From: Streptomyces iakyrus
GTDB taxonomy: Bacteria > Actinomycetota > Actinomycetes > Streptomycetales > Streptomycetaceae
Direction: 5' to 3'
Assembly: GCF_000717055.1 (NCBI RefSeq)
Contig: NZ_JNXI01000002.1
Span: 504,188 to 568,187 of the forward strand
Length of the DNA: 64,000 bases
Shown: positions 59-13,871 of the stretch, piece after piece
Position numbering within the stretch: the stretch's first letter is position 1
Layout of the letters: every line of letters begins with the position of its first letter
Position numbers and translations under genes: made by a program
The notes under the pieces: model-generated
What the model was told of the DNA's origin: nothing
The model's input: only the letters and a program-made list of their open reading frames with translations
Databases searched by the model: none

Positions 59-1465
59 ATGACCGCATCCGGTCACTCCGCGACACGACGTCAGATGCTC
101 GCCGGAACGGGCGCCCTGGGCCTCGGGATCGCGTTCTCCGGTGCCCTGTCCGAACTCTTCGCCGGCACCGCGTCCGCACAGGGCCTCGGCCGCACCGGCT
201 ACGGCCCGCTCGTCCCCGACCCGAAGGGCGTCCTGGACCTGCCGGAAGGTTTCCGCTACCGGATCCTCTCCCGCGAGGGGGACGAACTCCGGTCCGGAGA
301 GGGCCGGGTGCCCTCCAACCACGACGGCATGGCGGCCTTCGGAGGCAGAGGCGGCCGGGTCCACCTGGTCCGCAACCACGAGAACCGCGCCGACGGCAAG
401 GTCCCGGTCCCGGCCGTCGAGGGCCTCACCTACGACCCGGCCGGCAAGGGCGGCTGTACGGCCCTGACGGTGGACTCCCACAACCGGGTCCTGTCGGAAC
501 GCGTCGCGATCGCCGGTACGGCGGTGAACTGCGCGGGCGGCCCCACCCCTTGGGACACCTGGCTGACCTGTGAGGAGACCGAGGACAAGGCCGGGACCAA
601 CGGCTACACCAAGGACCACGGCTTCATCTTCGAGGTCGACCCGGCCGACCCGCACCGCACCGGGGCCGTGCCGCTGACCGCGATGGGCCGCTTCGCACAC
701 GAGGCGATCGCGGTCGACCCGCGGCGGGGCGTGGTCTACGAGACCGAGGACGCCTTCGAGAAGCCCTTCGGCCTCTTCTACCGCTTCCTCCCGGACCGGC
801 CGCTGGGCGGCAGGGGTTCGCTGCGCGCGGGGGGCCGGCTCCAGGCCATGCGCGTGCCCGGGGTGCCGGACCTGTCCTCCATCCAGGACGTCGGCGCCGA
901 GTTCGACAAAATCGAGTGGGCCGACGTCCCGGACCCGCAGGCCGCGCAGACGCCGATCCGGTTCCAGGACTTCGGCCGCAAGGGCATCACGCACGCGCAG
1001 AAGCTGGAGGGCTGCTACTGGGGCGGCCGTTCGGTGTACTTCGTGTCCTCCTTCGCCCGCCGGTCGGACGGTTCGGCCGCCGACCACTTCGGGCAGGTCT
1101 GGCGCTACGACCCGGAGCGCCGCCGGCTCACCCTGGTCATCGTCTTCGGCCCGGCCACCGATGTGCAGCTGCCGGGCGAGTCGCCGGACAACATCTGCCT
1201 GGCGCCGAGCGGCGGTCTCATGGTCTGCGAGGACGGCGAAGGCGCCCAGCACGTCTACGGGGTCACCCGGCGCGGCGAGGTCTACGCGATGGCGCGCAAC
1301 CGGCAGGCGATCACATCAGCCGCTGACGCGGCGGGCGGCACCGAGCAGCAGCCCGAGTGGGGTGAGTTCGCCGGGGTGACCTTCTCCCCGGACGGCGACA
1401 CGATGTATGTCAACTGCTACCGGCCCGGCACCACGTTCGCGGTGACGGGCCCCTGGCGCCGCTAG
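59..1465 (+). CDS. Tat-exported PhoX-like (DUF839) protein
   Basis: The 468-residue protein opens with a twin-arginine signal: Arg10-Arg11 followed by QMLAG, a hydrophobic stretch, and an ASA cleavage site near residue 40. The remainder matches the PhoX/DUF839 family, whose characterised members are secreted Ca2+/iron alkaline phosphatases with a beta-propeller fold; family-type segments seen are NHDGMAAF, LVRNHE, CAGGPTPWDTWLTCEE and SPDNICLAP. An extracellular role in releasing phosphate from organic phosphates is inferred from the family. The start is supported by AGGAAGG a few bases upstream. The next gene encodes a broken polyphosphate kinase, so a phosphate theme is possible but unproven. 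Many Streptomyces DUF839 proteins have no demonstrated substrate, so PhoX activity itself is uncertain. Confidence 0.85.
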   Translation: MTASGHSATRRQMLAGTGALGLGIAFSGALSELFAGTASAQGLGRTGYGPLVPDPKGVLDLPEGFRYRILSREGDELRSGEGRVPSNHDGMAAFGGRGGRVHLVRNHENRADGKVPVPAVEGLTYDPAGKGGCTALTVDSHNRVLSERVAIAGTAVNCAGGPTPWDTWLTCEETEDKAGTNGYTKDHGFIFEVDPADPHRTGAVPLTAMGRFAHEAIAVDPRRGVVYETEDAFEKPFGLFYRFLPDRPLGGRGSLRAGGRLQAMRVPGVPDLSSIQDVGAEFDKIEWADVPDPQAAQTPIRFQDFGRKGITHAQKLEGCYWGGRSVYFVSSFARRSDGSAADHFGQVWRYDPERRRLTLVIVFGPATDVQLPGESPDNICLAPSGGLMVCEDGEGAQHVYGVTRRGEVYAMARNRQAITSAADAAGGTEQQPEWGEFAGVTFSPDGDTMYVNCYRPGTTFAVTGPWRR

Positions 1466-5980: not shown

Positions 5981-6553
5981 TCAGGGCGGCGGCGGGCGCC
6001 TCTCGCGCTCCGCGACCACCGCGTGCATCCGCCGGGACAGCGCGGTGGCCGCCGCCGTGAGGAAGACGAACGTGTACAGGATCTGGGCGACTGCCACCAG
6101 CCGGGCCTCCTGCCCGCGCGGGGCGATGTCGCCGTAGCCGACGGTCGCGAGGGTGACGACGGTGAAGTACAGCGCGTCGACCCGGGTGCGCAGGCCGGTG
6201 AACTGTCCCGGCTGCTGCGCGAGGGCGTAGTACCCGGACGAGAAGACCAGCACGGCCAGGCACATCAGCAGCGAGATCATGATGCCCGACCGGGCCTGCG
6301 GCTTCTCCAGCACGATGTCGCGCACATGGCGCAGCAGCAGCGCGGCCACGAGCGCCAGGCACAGCACGAACAGCGGCCAGCCCAGCCACGGGCGGTCGGC
6401 GCCGAGGCGCTCCAGCGGCAACAGGAAGTAGGCCGTGACGCCTGCCACGAGCAGGGCCCCGGCCACGATCCGCAACCGGCGGACGGCGGCGGCCCGGGAT
6501 TCCGGTTCCCGCTTCCGCGCGGCGCGGTGGGGCTGCTCGCTGCCTCCGGACAT
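5981..6553 (-). CDS. Ion channel-like protein with K+ selectivity filter
   Basis: This 190-residue membrane protein has helices at about 30-46, 59-75, 91-112 and 153-172. Between the last two lies the pore loop [18 protein letters not shown], with the K+ selectivity filter TVGYGD at residues 137-142. It therefore resembles the two-helix pore module of bacterial K+ channels (Ion_trans_2 family) with two extra N-terminal helices. No cytosolic RCK/TrkA domain is present. It likely mediates passive K+ flux across the cytoplasmic membrane. The start ATG at 6553 gives [10 protein letters not shown]; the basic N-terminal tail is unusual only in length. Confidence 0.82.
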
Positions 6554-6733
6554 AGGACCGGTCTACGGCGTCTCGGGGCGGGACGCGACCCGTGCGCCTC
6601 CGTCGGTGGCGACGGGCGCGGGGCCCCGAACCTCAAATGTTGCTCTGAAGGAGGGCGGCATGCGGTTCGGGGGCGGGCGGCTGGGCCATACCCCCCTCAC
6701 GTTCGAGCAACGGGCCGGGTGGAGGAGGGGACG

Positions 6734-8272
6734 ATGGAGCGACTGGGGACGGGCATCGGGTGGCGGCCGGAGATCGCGGACGCCGTGGAGCGGATGCCGG
6801 GGATCGACTGGGTCGAGGCGGTGGCCGAGAACGTCTGCCCCGGGCACCTGCCCGACTCGCTGCGGCGGCTGCGCGAGGGCGGGGTCACCGTGGTGCCGCA
6901 CGGCGTGTCGCTCGGCCTCGGGGGCGCGGACCGGCCCGACGCGGGCCGGCTGACCGCACTGGCCGAGCGCGCCGAGGCGCTGGGCTCCCCGCTGGTCACC
7001 GAGCACATCGCGTTCGTTCGGGCGGGCGGTCCGCTGACGGCCTCCCCGCACCTGGAGGCCGGCCACCTGCTGCCCGTCCCCCGCACCCGGGACGCCCTGG
7101 ACGTCCTGTGCGAGAACGTACGCATCGCGCAGGACGCGCTGCCGGTGCCGCTGGCCGTGGAGAACATCGCCGCGCTGATCGGCTGGCCGGGCGAGGAGAT
7201 GACGGAGGGCCAGTTCCTGTACGAGCTCGCCGACCGCACGGGCGTCCGTCTCCTCATCGACGTGGCCAACCTGCACACCAACCACGTCAACCGCGGCGAA
7301 GGCCCCTCCAAGGCCCTCGCCGAGCTGCCCCTGGAGGCCATCGCCTACGTCCACGTCGCCGGCGGCTTCGAGCGCGACGGCGTCTGGCACGACAGCCACG
7401 CCCACCCGGTCCCCCGGCCGGTCCTCGACATCCTCACCGACCTCGCCTCCCGCGTCAGCCCGCCGGGCGTCCTGCTGGAACGGGACGAGAACTTCCCGGC
7501 ACCGGCGGAGCTGGAGCACGAGCTGAGCACGATCCGCCGGGCGCTGGAGGCGGGCGCCGTCGAACGCGTGAAGGCGGAACTGCGTGCGGCGGCCGGAACA
7601 GGGCCCGGCCGCCGGGGCGATGAACTGTTCGCGGCCGCCGGGGCCGGACGGCGGGAAGCGGCCGGGGGCGGCGGCGGAGAGCTGCTCGTGGAGGCCGGCG
7701 CCGCGCGGCAGGAGGGTGCCCGGAGCGTCACCGGCGGGCCCGGGACCGGGGCGGTACGGCGGGGCGATGAGACCGGGGCGGTGCGGCGGGGCGATGAGAC
7801 CGGGGCGGCCGGGGCGACACGGGGCGCCTTCGGCCGGCCCCACCAAGAGGAGGTCGACGGCGCCCGGCAGCGGCTCGCGCTGGCACAGGCGGCGCTGCTG
7901 TCGGCGCTGGTCGCGGGGACGCCCGTGCCCGAGGGGTTCGACCGGGTGCGGATCGGCGTACAGGCGAGGGCGCTCGCCGCGAAGCGGGCGGACGTCGTGG
8001 CCAAGGTCGCGCCCGAGCTGCCGGTGATCCTCGGCGACGGGTACCGCACGGCGTTCCTCGGCTACGCCCAGACCCACCCCATGACCTCCGGGTACCGGCG
8101 TGACGCCCTGACCTTCGCCGAGCACCTGCTGTCCACCGGGCGCCCCGGGGACACGGGGGCACGGCGGGAGCTGCGGGATTGGTGGCTGGACCGGTCGGGC
8201 CCGGCGCCGCGCTCCTCGCGGCCTGCCCACCGGCTCGCCCGCGCCACGCGCCGGGTGCTGTCGCGGCGGTGA
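6734..8272 (+). CDS. MNIO (DUF692) enzyme fused to a DUF2063/BufC-like partner domain
   Basis: Residues 1 to about 280 form a DUF692 TIM barrel of the multinuclear non-heme iron oxidative enzyme (MNIO) family. Likely metal ligands are visible in [46 protein letters not shown] and HDSHAHPV. Characterised MNIOs modify Cys or other residues of ribosomal peptides and need a partner protein. After a low-complexity linker (about 295-370, with a 27-bp tandem repeat) comes a helical domain: [54 protein letters not shown]. This resembles the N-terminal DUF2063/HvfC/BufC partner domain, so enzyme and partner appear fused. The start ATG follows GGAGGAGGGG. The substrate is not evident; a TIGR04222-type gene lies about 4.8 kb downstream. 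Confidence 0.8.
7748..7801 (+). repeat. 27-bp tandem repeat in the MNIO linker
   Basis: Two adjacent 27-base units (7748-7774 and 7775-7801), differing at one base, encode GAVRRGDET twice, and a third partial unit follows. The unit length is a multiple of three, so copy number can change without shifting frame. It lies in the flexible linker between the MNIO barrel and the C-terminal partner-like domain. Confidence 0.9.
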
Positions 8273-8301
8273 GGGGTGAGGTGCCCCGGGCCCCTCACCC
8301 C
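8273..8301. terminator. Bidirectional hairpin between convergent genes
   Basis: GGGGTGAG (8273-8280) pairs with CTCACCCC (8294-8301) across a GC-rich loop. It overlaps the stop of the minus-strand permease and directly follows the stop of the MNIO gene, as expected for a shared terminator of two convergent genes. No U-tract is present, which is usual in Streptomyces. Confidence 0.55.
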
Positions 8302-9779
8302 TGCCCCGAAGCCCCGGCCTTCCCCGGCACCGCGTCGCCCGCCGGGGCGTCACCGCGGCCGTAGTGGTGCGTGGTGAACATGTAGAGCAGGCCGGTGCCC
8401 AGCACGATCGCACCGCACAGCAGCACGATCCAGTTCTCCCACCAGGGCTTCTCCGGGGTGCGGGCCCAGCAGATGTTGACGATGGCGAAGACGCCGTAGG
8501 CCAGCGCACCGATGTTCACCGCGAGGCCCCAGCGGCCCAGGGTGAACTCCCCCGCCGGGCGCCACCCCTTGAGCCGGGCGCGCAGTGCGGCCAGGACCAC
8601 CATCTGGAACGAGCCGTAGATGCCGAGGATCGCGAACGAGACGATGTTGGTGAGGGCGTCCTCGGAGGCCAGTGAGGCGAAGGCGATGAGCAGCGGCACC
8701 GCCGCGGAGACGAACAGGGCCCAGCTCGGCACCGCACGGGCGTGGACGAACCGCCGCAGCAGCCGGTGCCCGACGATCATCTCGTCACGGGCGTAGGAGT
8801 AGATGAGCCGCCCGGCCGCCGCCTGGAGGCTGATCGTGCAGGACAGGAAGGAGATCAGCACCACGGCCATCACCAGCCGCGCCCCGGTCTCGCCCATGGC
8901 GTCGTACAGCACGTCCACCACCGGGTCGGCCTGTTCGCCCGAGATGACCGCGTTGTAGTCGGTGACCGACAGCAGCAGCGACATACAGGTGAACGTGGCC
9001 GCCGCGCCGCCGATGTAGATGGTGCGGCGCATCGCCTTGGGGATGACCCGGCCCGGGTGCTCGACCTCCTCGGCGGTGTCGCCGCACGCCTCGAAGCCGT
9101 AGTACTGGTAGAAGCCGATGATGGCAGCGGCGAGGAAGACCGGCAGATAGGAGCCGTTCCCTTCGGTGCCGTAGGTATCGAAGATGACGCCGATGTTGTG
9201 GTGGCGGTGGGTGGCCAGCAGGTAGATGCCCACGACGAGGGCGCCGATGAGCTCGCCCGCGAAGCCGATGATGGCGGCCGCCGACAGGGCCTTGGTGCCC
9301 AGGTAGTTGATGAGGATGGCGACGACGATGAGCACGGCCGTGCACAGCACGGTGGTGTGCACGGTCGGGTCGAAGCCGAAGAGGATGGCGATGTAGGGCC
9401 CGGCGCCGTAGGCGACCGAGGTGATGGTCACCAGCAGCGCCCACATGTACACCCAGCCGGTCATCCAGGCCCAGCGCTTGCCCCACAGGCGCCGCGCCCA
9501 GGGGTAGACGCCGCCGGCGATGGGGTACTGCGCGACGACCTCGCCGAAGATCAGCGCGACCAGGAACTGGCCGCAGCCGGCGAGCACGAACGCCCAGATC
9601 ATGGGCGGTCCGCCCTCGGCGAGCGCGGTGCCGAAGAGCGTGTAGGTGCTGACCACCGGGGAGAGGTAGGTGAAGCCGAGGGCGAAGTTGGCCCAGGGGC
9701 CCATGTCCTTGCGGAACTCGGAGCCCGGCTCGCCGCCGGGGACGCCGGCCGCCGGAGCGGGAGGCTGCGTGCCGGTCAC
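8295..9779 (-). CDS. APC-superfamily permease of the betaine operon
   Basis: The 494-residue protein has about 12 hydrophobic segments and the APC N-terminal pattern NFALGFTYLSPVVSTYTLFG, with the conserved Glu-containing segment LIFGEVVAQYPIAGGVYPWA typical of amino acid/amine permeases. It is the last gene of a minus-strand operon: its GTG start overlaps the stop of the GMC oxidoreductase gene (GTGA). The adjacent choline-oxidising enzymes suggest that it imports choline or a related quaternary amine or ethanolamine-like compound. That is inferred from context only; the sequence does not fix the substrate. Confidence 0.82.
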   Translation of the reverse strand: MTGTQPPAPAAGVPGGEPGSEFRKDMGPWANFALGFTYLSPVVSTYTLFGTALAEGGPPMIWAFVLAGCGQFLVALIFGEVVAQYPIAGGVYPWARRLWGKRWAWMTGWVYMWALLVTITSVAYGAGPYIAILFGFDPTVHTTVLCTAVLIVVAILINYLGTKALSAAAIIGFAGELIGALVVGIYLLATHRHHNIGVIFDTYGTEGNGSYLPVFLAAAIIGFYQYYGFEACGDTAEEVEHPGRVIPKAMRRTIYIGGAAATFTCMSLLLSVTDYNAVISGEQADPVVDVLYDAMGETGARLVMAVVLISFLSCTISLQAAAGRLIYSYARDEMIVGHRLLRRFVHARAVPSWALFVSAAVPLLIAFASLASEDALTNIVSFAILGIYGSFQMVVLAALRARLKGWRPAGEFTLGRWGLAVNIGALAYGVFAIVNICWARTPEKPWWENWIVLLCGAIVLGTGLLYMFTTHHYGRGDAPAGDAVPGKAGASGQG

Positions 9780-11332
9780 CGCTGCGCCTTCCGTCCCGCG
9801 GTGATCAGGTCGGCCGCGCGTTCGGCGGCGAGCAGCACGGTCACCATCGGGTTGATGGTGGGCATCGTCGGGAACACCGACGCGTCGACGATCCGCACGC
9901 CCTCGAAGCCCCGCAGTCTCAGCTCGGGGTCGCAGACGGCCGCCGGGTCGTCAGCGGCGCCCATGCGGCAGGTGCCGGCCGGGTGGTAGACCGTGTGGGC
10001 CGCACGGCGTCCGTACTCCGACAGGTCGGTGTCGGAGACGACGTCCGGGCCGGGCGCGACCTCGCGGACGAGCCAGTCGCGCAGCGGGTCGGTCGCCGCG
10101 ACCTCGCGGGCCACCTTCAGCCCGTCCACGAGGGTGCGCTCGTCATGGCCCCCGGGGTCGGTGAAGTACCGGAAGTCCAGGGCGGGATGCTCGGCGGGGT
10201 TGTTGCTGCGCAGCCACATGCGGCCGGTGGAGCGGGCCCGCGGCACGTTCGGCGTCATGCACACCCCGTGCCGCGGTACGGGGTAGCCCAGGCGTTCGGT
10301 GTTGACGGTGAACGGCACCTGGTAGAAGTGGAACATCAGGTCGGGGCGCGGCTGGCCCTTGTCGCGGCGCAGGAACAGGCCGGCGTCGGAGTCCATCGCG
10401 GAGTTGGGCGGCAGCGGTCCCGCGGTCTCCCAGACGATCACGGACTCGGGGTGGTCCAGCAGGTTCTCCCCGACACCGGGCAGGTCGGCCCGCACCTTGA
10501 TGCCCAGGGCGCGCAGGTCGTCGGCCGGTCCGATGCCGGAGAGCAGCAGCAGGCGCGGGGTGTCGATGGCTCCGGCGCACAGCAGGAGTTCGCGCTCGGC
10601 GCGCACGGTCGCGGCTTCGCCGTCGGCGCCCCGCACGGCGACCCGCGTCAGCCGGCCCGACTCGTCGGGGATCAGCCGGTGGGCCCAGGTCTCCAGCTTC
10701 AGCGTGAGGTTGGGCCGGTCCAGCACCGGGTGGAGGTAGGCGACGGACGCGGAGGAGCGCAGGTTGCCCTCCGGCTGATAGGCCAGGGAGAAGAACCCGG
10801 CGCCGTCGGCGAAGGGTTCGGCGTTGAAGTCGTCGACGACGGGGACGCCGAGGGCGCGGGAGGCGGCGGTGACGAAGTCCTTGGCGATGGGATTGCGGTC
10901 GGCCTCGGCCACCGGGACGATCTGCGTGAGCAGCCGGTCGCGGTAGGGCAGGATCGTCGCCGGGTCCCAGCCGGCGCAGCCGTGGCTCACCCAGTCGTCC
11001 AGGTCCTGCGGCAGCGGCAGGAAGCTGATCAGCGTGTTGTGCGAGGAGCAGCCGCCGAGCACACGGGCCCGTGAGTGCAGGATGTGCGAGTTGCCGCGCG
11101 GCTGCTCGACGGTGGTGTAGCCGTAGTCGAACTCCGAGCCGAGCAGGTTGATCCAGTTGCGCAGGCGCAGGATGCGCTCGTCGCCCACGTCGCTGGGGCC
11201 GCCCTCGATGACGCAGACGCGGCAGTCGGGGTCCTCGCTCAGCCGGGCGGCGAGCACGCAGCCGGCGGTGCCGCCGCCGACGATGACGTAGTCGTAGGCG
11301 GACTCGGCGCCGTGCGCGGGAGTGGTGGCCAT
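9776..11332 (-). CDS. betA: GMC oxidoreductase, probable choline dehydrogenase
   Basis: This 518-residue FAD enzyme starts with the GMC ADP-binding motif YVIVGGGTAGCVLAARLSED, followed by the GMC signature RARVLGGCSSHNTLI and the second signature GAIDTPRLLLLSGIGP. The C-terminal catalytic segment HTVYHPAGTCRMG and the final INPMVTVLLAAERAADLI are intact. Together with the aldehyde dehydrogenase just upstream and the permease just downstream, it probably oxidises choline to betaine aldehyde for glycine betaine synthesis. GMC enzymes act on many alcohols, so the substrate rests on context. The ATG at 11332 has AAAGG upstream; 29 bases separate it from the aldehyde dehydrogenase stop. Confidence 0.8.
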   Translation of the reverse strand: MATTPAHGAESAYDYVIVGGGTAGCVLAARLSEDPDCRVCVIEGGPSDVGDERILRLRNWINLLGSEFDYGYTTVEQPRGNSHILHSRARVLGGCSSHNTLISFLPLPQDLDDWVSHGCAGWDPATILPYRDRLLTQIVPVAEADRNPIAKDFVTAASRALGVPVVDDFNAEPFADGAGFFSLAYQPEGNLRSSASVAYLHPVLDRPNLTLKLETWAHRLIPDESGRLTRVAVRGADGEAATVRAERELLLCAGAIDTPRLLLLSGIGPADDLRALGIKVRADLPGVGENLLDHPESVIVWETAGPLPPNSAMDSDAGLFLRRDKGQPRPDLMFHFYQVPFTVNTERLGYPVPRHGVCMTPNVPRARSTGRMWLRSNNPAEHPALDFRYFTDPGGHDERTLVDGLKVAREVAATDPLRDWLVREVAPGPDVVSDTDLSEYGRRAAHTVYHPAGTCRMGAADDPAAVCDPELRLRGFEGVRIVDASVFPTMPTINPMVTVLLAAERAADLITAGRKAQR

Positions 11333-11361
11333 GCCGTGCCTTTCGTGCGGTGTGGCGTGGA

Positions 11362-12828
11362 TCAGCCCTTGAACCAGCCGGAGGGGGCGGGGGCGAGGTT
11401 CTGGTAGATGTGCTTGGCCTCCTGGTACTCGCGCAGCCCCGTCGGGCCGAGTTCGCGTCCGACGCCGGAGCGGCCGAAGCCGCCCCACTCGGCCTGCGGC
11501 ACGTAGGGGTGGAAGTCGTTGATCCACACGGTGCCGTGCCGCAGTCGCTGGGCCACGCGCTGGGCGCGGCTCGCATCCGAGGTCCACACGCCGCCGGCGA
11601 GGCCGTAGCGAGTGTCGTTGGCGAGTTCCACCGCCTCGTCCTCGGTGCGGAAGCGTTCGACGGTGACGACCGGGCCGAAGACCTCCTCCTGGACGATGCG
11701 CATGGACCGGTCGCAGTCGGCGAAGATCGTCGGCAGCAGGAAGAAGCCGTCGGCGAGGGCGGGGTCGTCGGGGCGGGTGCCTCCGGTGACGAGCCGGGCG
11801 CCCTCCTCCTTGGCGACGGCGATGTAGCCCTCGACCTTCTCGCGGTGCTCGGCAGAGCTGAGCGGGCCGCTCTCGGTGCCCTCGTCGAGGCCGTTGCCGA
11901 GGCGGATCGCCCGGGCGCGGTCTGCATAGGCCTCGACGAACCGGTCGTGCAGGGAGTCCTCGACGAGCAGGCGTGAACCGGCCGAGCAGACCTGCCCGGA
12001 GTGCAGGAAGGCCGCGTCGAGGGCGTAGTCGACGGCGGCCTCGAAGTCGGCGTCGGCGAAGACGATGTTGGGGTTCTTGCCGCCCAGTTCCAGGGCGATG
12101 TTCCGCGGCCCGTCGGCGGCACTGGCCATGATGGCCCGTCCGGTGTTCAGGCCGCCGGTGAAGGAGACCAGGTCGACGTCGGGGTGGGCGGTCAGGGCCG
12201 CGCCGACGGTCGCCCCGGAGCCGAGCACGAGGTTGGCGACGCCGGGCGGGGCGCCGGCCTCCTCGATGAGCCGGATCATGGCGATCGTGGTGAGCGGGGT
12301 GGTCTCGCTGGGCTTGAGGACGAAGGTGTTGCCGGCGGCGAGCGCGGGCGCGACCTTCCAGGAGGCCTGCAACAGGGGGTAGTTCCAGGGGGCGATGAGC
12401 GCGCACACGCCGACGGGCTGGTAGACGACGCGGCTGAGGACGTCCGGGCCGACGTCGACGACCCGGCCGCCGTCCTTGCCCGCGAGTTCGGCGTAGTAGC
12501 GGAAGGCGTTGGCCACGTCCTCCACGTCGATCCGGGCCTCGGTGAGGGTCTTGCCGGTGTCGAGCGTCTCGGTGCGTGCGATGTCCTCCCGGTCGCGCAG
12601 CAGCAGGTCGTGGACGCGCAGCAGGAGGTCGGCCCGGCGGCGCGAGGGGGCGTTCGCCCAGTCCTCCTCGGCGAAGGCGCGCCGGGCGGCGCGCACGGCG
12701 CGGTCGACGTCGGTGGCGTCGGCCTCGTCGACGGTGGTGACGACCGAGGCGTCATAGGGGTTGATCACGTCCCGGCGCCCGCCGGCCGCCGCCTGTGTCC
12801 ACGCGCCGTCGATGTACAGCTCACCCAC
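11362..12828 (-). CDS. betB: Aldehyde dehydrogenase, probable betaine aldehyde dehydrogenase
   Basis: The 488-residue NAD(P)-dependent aldehyde dehydrogenase shows the expected motifs: IAPWNYPLLQASWKVAPALAAGN, the catalytic Glu in ALELGGKNPNIVF, and the catalytic Cys in HSGQVCSAGSRLLVE. The GQVCSAGS form is common in betaine aldehyde dehydrogenases. The start is GTG at 12828 (VGELYIDGAW), placed 7 bases after GGAGG (12840-12836); upstream in-frame starts lack this. It is the first gene of a three-gene operon with a GMC oxidoreductase and a permease, consistent with conversion of betaine aldehyde to the osmoprotectant glycine betaine. No BetI-type regulator gene is adjacent. Confidence 0.82.
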   Translation of the reverse strand: MGELYIDGAWTQAAAGGRRDVINPYDASVVTTVDEADATDVDRAVRAARRAFAEEDWANAPSRRRADLLLRVHDLLLRDREDIARTETLDTGKTLTEARIDVEDVANAFRYYAELAGKDGGRVVDVGPDVLSRVVYQPVGVCALIAPWNYPLLQASWKVAPALAAGNTFVLKPSETTPLTTIAMIRLIEEAGAPPGVANLVLGSGATVGAALTAHPDVDLVSFTGGLNTGRAIMASAADGPRNIALELGGKNPNIVFADADFEAAVDYALDAAFLHSGQVCSAGSRLLVEDSLHDRFVEAYADRARAIRLGNGLDEGTESGPLSSAEHREKVEGYIAVAKEEGARLVTGGTRPDDPALADGFFLLPTIFADCDRSMRIVQEEVFGPVVTVERFRTEDEAVELANDTRYGLAGGVWTSDASRAQRVAQRLRHGTVWINDFHPYVPQAEWGGFGRSGVGRELGPTGLREYQEAKHIYQNLAPAPSGWFKG

Positions 12829-13100
12829 CGCGGGGCCTCCTTCGCGTCCGTCCGGAGCCCGATCGGCCCGACGGTCAGCAACATGGCCCATCGGGCGGGC
12901 GGCGGCCACGGGGCGCACCGCCGCGACGGCGTCCGGACGGCCCAGAGGACCCGGCTGGGCTAGTCGCCCGGGCCATGATGCCCGCCACCCACTTACAGAA
13001 CGCCACCAGAGGGAAACGGAACGTCACGTACCGACAACACTCCGTCCGGATTGTGAACGAGGCATGGTGTTTTCGGGACGGTGTCACATACAAACAACAT

Positions 13101-13871
13101 ATGCTCTGGGTTCTTTTCCTCCTGGCGGCCTGGGCCGTGGCCGGCACCGCGTGTACACGCCTGTGCCTGGCCGCCGTTCGGGCCGCGGCCGTGGACGCGG
13201 ACACCGGCCGGGGTCGTGAACTCACGCTGTACGAGGCGGCGTTCCTCTCCGGCGGCCCCCGGCGGGTCGCCGACGTGACCCTGGTCGCCATGGCGCGCCA
13301 GCGCCGTCTGCTGCTGGCCCACACCGGCTGGGCGACGGTCGTCGACCCGCGCGGGCGGGACGAGATGGAGCAGTCGGTGATAGGCGCCATCGGCCCCGAA
13401 GGGCAGTCCCGGATCGCGCCGGTGCGGGCCACGGCCGCGACGGCGGAGGCGGTGCGCGGGATCGCCGAGGGGCTGGAGCGCGCGGGGCTCGCGGTGCCGG
13501 ACAGCGCCCGCACGACGGTCACGGCGGCCGTACGGCAGGTGCGGGTCGCGGCCGTCGCCGTCCTCGGGCTGGGCGCGGCCGCGCTGCTGACGCCCGCTCC
13601 GCCGGACATGCCGCGGCACCTGGTCGCCCTGTGGTTCGCGCTGCCCCTGGCCCTGGCCCTGAGCTGCCTGGCCGTCGCGCGGGTCGAGATCCACCCCTAC
13701 TCGCGCTGGGCCTCCCCGGCCGGACAGCGGCTGCTCGGCGGGCTGACCCGGACCGCCGACGGCGCCGCCGACGACCGCACGTACCTCACGTCGGTGGCCG
13801 TGCGGGGCGTCGGCGCGATCGGCGAACCGGAGCTGCGGGCCGCGTTCGCGCACCGCGAGCCGCACGACTGA
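13101..13871 (+). CDS. TIGR04222-type membrane protein
   Basis: The 256-residue product has an N-terminal helix (MLWVLFLLAAWAVAG), then the pattern LTLYEAAFLSGGPRRVADVTLVAMARQRRL, seen in the TIGR04222 family, and two helices near residues 150-195. It ends with SVAVRGVGAIGEPELRAAFAHREPHD. From memory, TIGR04222 proteins usually continue into a Gly/Cys-rich tail after the GxxAIxDPxLRAA segment and often neighbour DUF692 genes; here the tail is absent. The ATG at 13101 fits the family N-terminus but has no clear ribosome binding site; upstream ATGs at 12975 and 12978 are in frame. It is divergent from the betaine operon. The function is unknown; a link to the MNIO enzyme at 6734 is inferred. 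Confidence 0.65.
   Translation: MLWVLFLLAAWAVAGTACTRLCLAAVRAAAVDADTGRGRELTLYEAAFLSGGPRRVADVTLVAMARQRRLLLAHTGWATVVDPRGRDEMEQSVIGAIGPEGQSRIAPVRATAATAEAVRGIAEGLERAGLAVPDSARTTVTAAVRQVRVAAVAVLGLGAAALLTPAPPDMPRHLVALWFALPLALALSCLAVARVEIHPYSRWASPAGQRLLGGLTRTADGAADDRTYLTSVAVRGVGAIGEPELRAAFAHREPHD

Follow-up and report, generated by a model that had tools for sequence, protein, structure and literature searches.

The open reading frame (ORF) at 6734–8272 (+ strand) of a 64,000 nt stretch of Streptomyces iakyrus DNA, here called the window, is uninterrupted and codes for a protein of 512 amino acids. An enzyme domain of the MNIO family (DUF692) and a C-terminal domain which we read as its partner are carried on this one chain. 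As best overall explanation we propose, with a probability of roughly 0.6, a self-contained fused MNIO–partner enzyme which acts on the tails of TIGR04222-family proteins and has an unlinked member of this kind as candidate substrate in this genome. The union of MNIO and partner is highly probable; TIGR04222-family tails are somewhat favoured as substrates; the choice of the unlinked protein as the substrate in this genome is tentative, at slightly less than even odds. Coordinates of gene features are window positions unless prefixed G000:C2, which refers to the organism's own genome (9.1 Mb).

Domain architecture and occurrence of the fusion

The gene comprises the following features:

6721–6730 (+): strong ribosome-binding site GGAGGAGGGG, seen in the sequence before the ATG at 6734
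6734–7558 (+): MNIO (DUF692, PF05114) catalytic domain, residues 1–275, from the PF05114 match and the ligand alignment
7559–7843 (+): low-complexity repetitive linker, residues ~276–370, with tandem repeats and of variable length in homologues
7844–8269 (+): C-terminal partner-like helical domain (PF26136), residues 371–512, from structure prediction, VIA-align, a DUF2063 shuffle test, and its occurrence as a separate gene in relatives

The first-pass annotation, made from the sequence alone, had named the N-terminal part an MNIO, and this was borne out. The PF05114 match covers residues 6–271 (E 5.7e-75, 252.4 bits, cut-off 25), and the ORF is the only PF05114 match of the own genome at E ≤ 0.001. 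The best NCBIfam model is the bufferin maturase BufB (NF050167); since its 170.4 bits fall below the equivalog cut-off of 310, the product is assigned as an MNIO, not as BufB. Nine residues (E32, H56, H91, E143, D176, H207, D220, H222, and E249) do not vary across 12 aligned rows, namely the window MNIO, nine MNIOs of DUF2063-type plasmid operons, and two actinomycete MNIOs. We take these residues to be the iron ligands, as in the structures of MbnB and TglH. The same nine His/Asp/Glu residues are identical in 101 of 101 Streptomyces loci, including 47 without a detected Cys-tailed TIGR04222 neighbour; the presumed metal ligands, on whose retention the earlier assignment depended, are intact. 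Named near-identical proteins are those of Streptomyces iakyrus (95%), S. qaidamensis (94%), and S. collinus (93%).

The C-terminal ~140 residues form a distinct conserved domain, PF26136 ('SCO6045-like C-terminal domain'), according to the precomputed database annotation of the window protein and its homologues. The AlphaFold2 (AF2) model of residues 371–512, with a predicted local distance difference test (pLDDT) score of 91.5, consists entirely of helices with zero strands. In a VIA-align comparison of this model ranks 1–4 went to TglI and MbnC, and a profile match to DUF2063 spans the whole DUF2063 stretch and beats 60 of 60 shuffles. Foldseek by itself gave no significant match; the full-length AF2 model was of low confidence and was left unused. 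The argument for the fold is built on the VIA ranking, the profile test, and the gene context, the domain occurring in relatives also as a separate gene adjoining the MNIO gene.

A DUF2063/BufC-like partner had been suggested for this domain. The predicted fold agrees with the partner character, as the AlphaFold check proposed at that time points to the MNIO partners TglI and MbnC rather than to an unrelated fold, but the BufC-like part of the suggestion did not stand. The DUF2063 signature PF09836 was found neither in the whole protein (E ≤ 1) nor when the C-terminal domain was searched by itself (E ≤ 10), while the same model does match nine true DUF2063 proteins. A genome-wide DUF2063 search found none at the MNIO locus and only weak matches elsewhere (E 0.64 and 1.7), and an RRE part is absent from the confident all-helix model of residues 371–512. 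The domain combines a predicted TglI/NGO1945-like fold lacking the DUF2063 signature with a position directly after the MNIO, to which it is fused in the window gene and behind which it is a separate downstream gene in relatives. Because neither a DUF2063 signature nor an RRE is present, it is closer to the PME-type 2 class, as outlined in the part of PMC12452194 (Antoine et al. 2025) used here, than to BufC.

The repetitive linker noted earlier was confirmed at the DNA level by tandem repeats, e.g. 27 bp × 2.4 at 7744–7808 (97% match). Among 89 fused homologues 19–172 residues separate the two domain matches.

The fusion is not a peculiarity of this genome but the usual form in the Streptomyces loci read, and an existing Pfam family covers it. 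The gene is very common in Streptomyces, PF05114 matches being present in 141 of 150 genomes. Of these 141 genomes 101 loci (the window and 100 others) were read; both domains lie in one ORF in 89, the partner domain is a separate downstream ORF in 11, and a contig end cuts it off in one. Thus it is fused or next door in 100 of 101. Six of the 101 were picked because they had already been shown to be separate, which enriches the separate count. With 89 of 101 loci having both domains in one ORF, the fusion is neither chance nor a sequencing artefact. A class-wide search detected the C-terminal domain in 53 of 296 genomes, 25 of these Streptomyces. From the 28 non-Streptomyces genomes 20 loci were fetched, all with an MNIO match beside the domain: 17 have separate ORFs and three one ORF (L104, L105, and L110, the MNIO match of L104 being broken over frames). 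In an MNIO tree of 105 rows, the bootstrap of which had not settled, the fused/separate label needs five changes, and the starred branches force at least two. The separate form L237 branches first within Streptomyces; this tree position fits a separate ancestor, though the L237 branch is long.

TIGR04222 genes in the neighbourhood

In the usual Streptomyces order the MNIO–partner gene is followed by a Cys-tailed TIGR04222 gene and often by a second TIGR04222 gene without Cys. Evaluable are the 92 Streptomyces loci in which 2.6 kb or more follow the MNIO: a TIGR04222 gene with three or more tail Cys is present in 54 (44 fused, 10 separate) and absent from 38, all of them fused. Outside Streptomyces, 13 of the 20 loci have a TIGR04222 match upstream of the MNIO, in each case with a Gly/Ser-rich tail that contains three or more Cys; the matches of L108 and L111 are weak, and in L107 there is a gap of 1.4 kb.

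In the tree the window falls into a 43-row clade (support 100/97), where a Cys-tailed TIGR04222 gene is found only in L219 and L220; five of the other 41 rows are cut by contig ends (L190, L195, L199, L207, and L233). Outside the clade, the evaluable rows lacking such a gene are L137, with a short tail and one Cys, and L216. The usual linked Cys-tailed gene is missing at the window locus, too, where the following neighbours were identified:

5981–6553 (−): ion-channel protein (PF07885), divergent neighbour of the MNIO gene
8295–9779 (−): amino-acid permease (PF13520), convergent with the MNIO gene and first gene between it and the TIGR04222 gene
13101–13871 (+): TIGR04222 membrane protein without Cys-rich tail (149 bits, cut-off 43)

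No TIGR04222 gene stands directly beside the MNIO; the nearest, at 13101–13871, lies 5.6 kb beyond the MNIO domain, and the interval holds genes on the opposite strand. Its protein has a tail ending in ELRAAFAHREPHD with zero Cys and resembles the 'second' TIGR04222 protein of the usual Streptomyces locus. At 8295–12918 (−) the permease and two oxidoreductase-like ORFs split the usual MNIO–TIGR04222 neighbourhood, and a 6.8-kb separation is also seen in L145. The latter two minus-strand ORFs resemble a GMC oxidoreductase and an aldehyde dehydrogenase, akin to choline-betaine genes.

In part of the clade (L132, L143, L151, and L152) a conserved Cys-free protein (MRPRPPIKGRGIF...) replaces the Cys-tailed TIGR04222 protein. 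This ORF, situated between the MNIO and the second TIGR04222 gene, was considered as a Cys-tailed substrate and rejected, its 255–269 residues being free of Cys. Presumably it is DUF4142-like.

The substrate had earlier been called unknown, and a neighbourhood analysis had been proposed. That analysis shows that the linked Cys-tailed candidate was lost in this lineage, but as a link between MNIO, type-2 partner, and TIGR04222 has been described before (PMC12452194, in the part used here), the substrate is not wholly unknown.

The upstream motif and the unlinked Gly/Cys-tailed protein

The connection to a substrate candidate outside the window is made by a short motif upstream of the MNIO gene:

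6632–6649 (+): upstream motif CTCAAATGTTGCTCTGAA (consensus CTCAAATnnnnCTCTGAA), putative regulator site between the ion-channel and MNIO genes, one of only two such sites in the genome
G000:C2:271595–272209: unlinked TIGR04222-like protein of 205 residues, behind an exact copy of the motif, ~239 kb from the MNIO

The consensus CTCAAATnnnnCTCTGAA is common to the upstream regions of most MNIO genes compared. A search of the own genome for CCTCAAATnnnnCTCTGAA with up to two mismatches returned two sites, neither of which has a mismatch; the reversed control gave one. The second exact site, at G000:C2:271475, lies 120 bases before the start of the unlinked TIGR04222-like gene. In the 150 Streptomyces genomes the 14-letter core with at most one mismatch occurs at 207 sites in 136 genomes (reversed control 2). 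Of the 89 fused loci, 86 have the motif in gene direction no more than 260 bases upstream of the MNIO domain, as do four of the 11 separate loci and the single unclassified one. To judge from the sequence, the shared motif suggests that enzyme and candidate substrate are co-regulated from separate loci.

Further elements were noticed upstream of the MNIO. In many relatives compared a near-palindromic element like GGGGnCATnACCCC lies between the motif and the MNIO start (6650–6720 in the window), and a direct repeat with an 11-base period is also present; together they are perhaps an activator site plus operator. A peptide ORF at 6660 with a good ribosome-binding site, just upstream of the MNIO, was dropped because the close relatives L145 and L146 do not have that ATG.

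The unlinked protein matches TIGR04222 positions 28–127 with 30.2 bits, below the cut-off of 43; its C-terminal tail reads YHYCGGGGGGCGGGGS and ends in GGGGGGYHYCGGGGGGCGGGGS. On one side of the gene is a catalase gene (PF00199), on the other an opposite-strand ORF which we take to resemble a glyoxylate carboligase. The catalase neighbourhood would fit a redox theme but proves nothing.

Matches to the unlinked protein at E ≤ 1e-5 were found in 31 of 150 Streptomyces genomes, and 30 loci were read, 23 strong (L156–L178) and seven weaker (L179–L185). The motif precedes the match start by 107–150 bases in 18 of the 23 strong homologues, the others being L157, L163, L164, L169, and L171; in the genome of L171 (G027) the homologue gene is in two pieces, and the motif precedes the first piece. 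At least one Cys is present in the last 30 residues of 19 of the 23. Two observations weigh against the proposed pairing of enzyme and unlinked protein: L157 (G009), the nearest relative by the unlinked protein (79%), does not have the motif, which counts against a strict pairing, and four of the 23 strong homologues are without tail Cys. The weaker matches mostly have neither motif nor tail Cys.

Among the matches listed, 39 other motif sites precede neither an MNIO nor a homologue of the unlinked protein. Five of the 39 listed (L291, L292, L302, L305, and L327) precede TIGR04222-like ORFs with Gly/Cys tails, chosen by a script preferring Gly-rich tails and in the case of L292 only weakly matching (E 1.8e-5). 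Behind a further 17 of those listed there is no such ORF, and the spacer resembles that of the own genome, motif and GC-rich hairpin being kept (L289, L293, L297–L299, L303, L307, L312, L313, L316–L318, L320–L323, and L325). The remaining 17 listed show no evident relation; 16 are one-mismatch sites and one is an exact site at a contig end.

The own-genome spacer (L328, L186; within G000:C2:271475–272209) contains the MNIO motif, a CTTCAAC...GGGCACATTCT stretch, and a strong GC hairpin. For the spacer hairpin 13 pairs are predicted; in five of them both partner bases are changed in at least one of the 18 rows. Four motif spacers were compared with Rfam, no score coming close to the gathering threshold, and no common small peptide was seen on inspection of the 17 ORF-less spacers. 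A small RNA or a leader is possible.

Proposed mechanism, alternatives, and known systems

In the proposed mechanism the N-terminal barrel would bind iron and oxidise residues in a protein made by the ribosome. The C-terminal helical domain would dock on the barrel and present the substrate, as TglI or MbnC do as separate subunits, and the flexible linker would merely tether the two. The likely ancestral order is TIGR04222 gene, MNIO gene, partner gene, the last two having presumably merged in Streptomyces. As likely substrates we see the Gly/Ser/Cys-rich tails at the C-termini of TIGR04222-family proteins, which may be recognised via their folded N-terminal part: as part of the N-terminal domain and a Gly-rich tail are what the unlinked protein has in common with the membrane TIGR04222 proteins, the partner probably reads the N-terminal domain while the barrel acts on the tail. 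In the clade of the window the linked substrate would have been lost and the unlinked relative retained under the same control. Since the linked Cys-tailed gene is gone in this lineage, the protein at G000:C2:271595–272209 is the best substrate candidate.

For this one clade we tentatively go further. The substrate gene may have left the MNIO operon, so that fused enzyme and Gly/Cys-tailed protein are now unlinked and joined only by the identical upstream motif, essentially as a two-site regulon. The enzyme, then stress-induced, would work in trans, recognising a folded protein by its N-terminal domain and modifying the tail. In S. coelicolor, SCO6045 is listed as 3-fold up under oxidative stress (PMC4991794, Table 1, in the part used here). 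Its equation with the window gene rests on the PF26136 name; the role in vivo is perhaps in redox or metal stress. If the proposal is true, the shared motif gives a concrete unlinked candidate substrate that operon-based genome mining would miss.

We considered three alternatives to this mechanism. First, the fused enzyme could act on some other peptide or protein, unrelated and unlinked; its tie to TIGR04222 would then be ancestral and lost in this lineage. This would be consistent with the 38 of 82 evaluable fused loci which have no Cys-tailed TIGR04222 neighbour and keep the ligand residues, with the presence of such a neighbour in only 2 of 43 rows in the clade of the window (five of the other 41 cut by contig ends), and with the finding of the unlinked candidate in only 31 of 150 genomes. 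However, in this genome an exact motif copy links the enzyme to a TIGR04222-like gene with a Gly/Cys tail, and ORFs of the same kind follow five more motif sites among the matches listed (one weak, Gly-rich tails picked by script); we regard an unrelated substrate as unlikely. Second, the C-terminal domain could be a regulatory or structural appendage which shares only the helical-bundle fold and recruits no substrate. That MNIO partners are the top structural matches, that the profile match over the whole DUF2063 stretch lies above all 60 shuffles, and that the separate-gene form occupies the usual position of the partner gene make this improbable. Third, an AP-endonuclease-like DNA repair enzyme, to which several homologues named endonuclease and a weak PF01261 match (36 bits) would point, can practically be discounted given the 252 bits of PF05114, the invariance of the residues shared with MNIOs of bufferin-type operons, and the fact that PF01261 covers the same barrel, probably reflecting the shared TIM-barrel superfamily.

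The fused MNIO–partner protein is a member of the SCO6045 family of Streptomyces ('UPF0276 / DUF692 domain-containing protein'), with the same two-domain architecture and no difference from it. As this architecture (PF05114 plus PF26136) is already visible in public annotation, it is not a new kind of system. The first-pass annotation had considered an undescribed modification system. This applies to the fusion, for which no literature description was found, including the parts of PMC12452194, PMC13174530, PMC12141560, and PMC4991794 used here, with supplements and subscription papers outside the scope of the search; it does not apply to the annotated architecture or to the TIGR04222 association. 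What this analysis adds is the interpretation of the C-terminal domain as a partner fused to the enzyme, the upstream motif, and the finding that the linked TIGR04222 gene with a Cys tail has been lost.

According to PMC12452194, TIGR04222 proteins are putative MNIO substrates, and PME-type 2 partners as well as MNIO|nitroreductase fusions are described. The TIGR04222–MNIO–PME-type 2 clusters of Actinomycetota described there have the same enzyme family, the same proposed substrate family, and likewise short DUF2063-like partners without the Pfam signature. In contrast to these clusters, the partner is here fused to the enzyme, and in Streptomyces the TIGR04222 gene follows the MNIO instead of preceding it; the one in this genome is 5.6 kb off and without a Cys tail, the Gly/Cys-tailed relative being ~239 kb off behind the same motif. 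In the MNIO|nitroreductase fusions the MNIO is also fused, but to an enzyme and not to a partner. TglHI (3-thiaglutamate) and MbnBC (methanobactin) likewise pair an MNIO with a partner, and it is their partners that the C-terminal domain matches best in structure; both systems differ in having two separate chains and different, known substrates. BufB with BufC (DUF2063-RRE) supplies the closest NCBIfam model, from which the window protein is set apart by its score below the cut-off and by a partner domain without DUF2063 signature or RRE. Partner complex formation typically enhances MNIO solubility (PMC13174530, in the part used here), which makes a natural one-chain MNIO a convenient starting point for biochemistry.

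Three other loci were noticed. On a plasmid of Streptomyces sp. NBC_01527 (L287, NZ_CP109396.1) an unfused MNIO is followed by genes for an FAD/NAD(P)-binding protein, a 2OG-Fe(II) oxygenase, and an ABC transporter, a different, possibly peptide-making cluster. On an Asticcacaulis excentricus plasmid (L280, NC_014818.1) two divergent MNIO plus DUF2063 gene pairs lie less than 4 kb apart in all, and one of them is accompanied by a DUF2282 (bufferin) gene. In the window itself, 59–1465 (+) codes for a PhoX-type alkaline phosphatase with a twin-arginine-like start.
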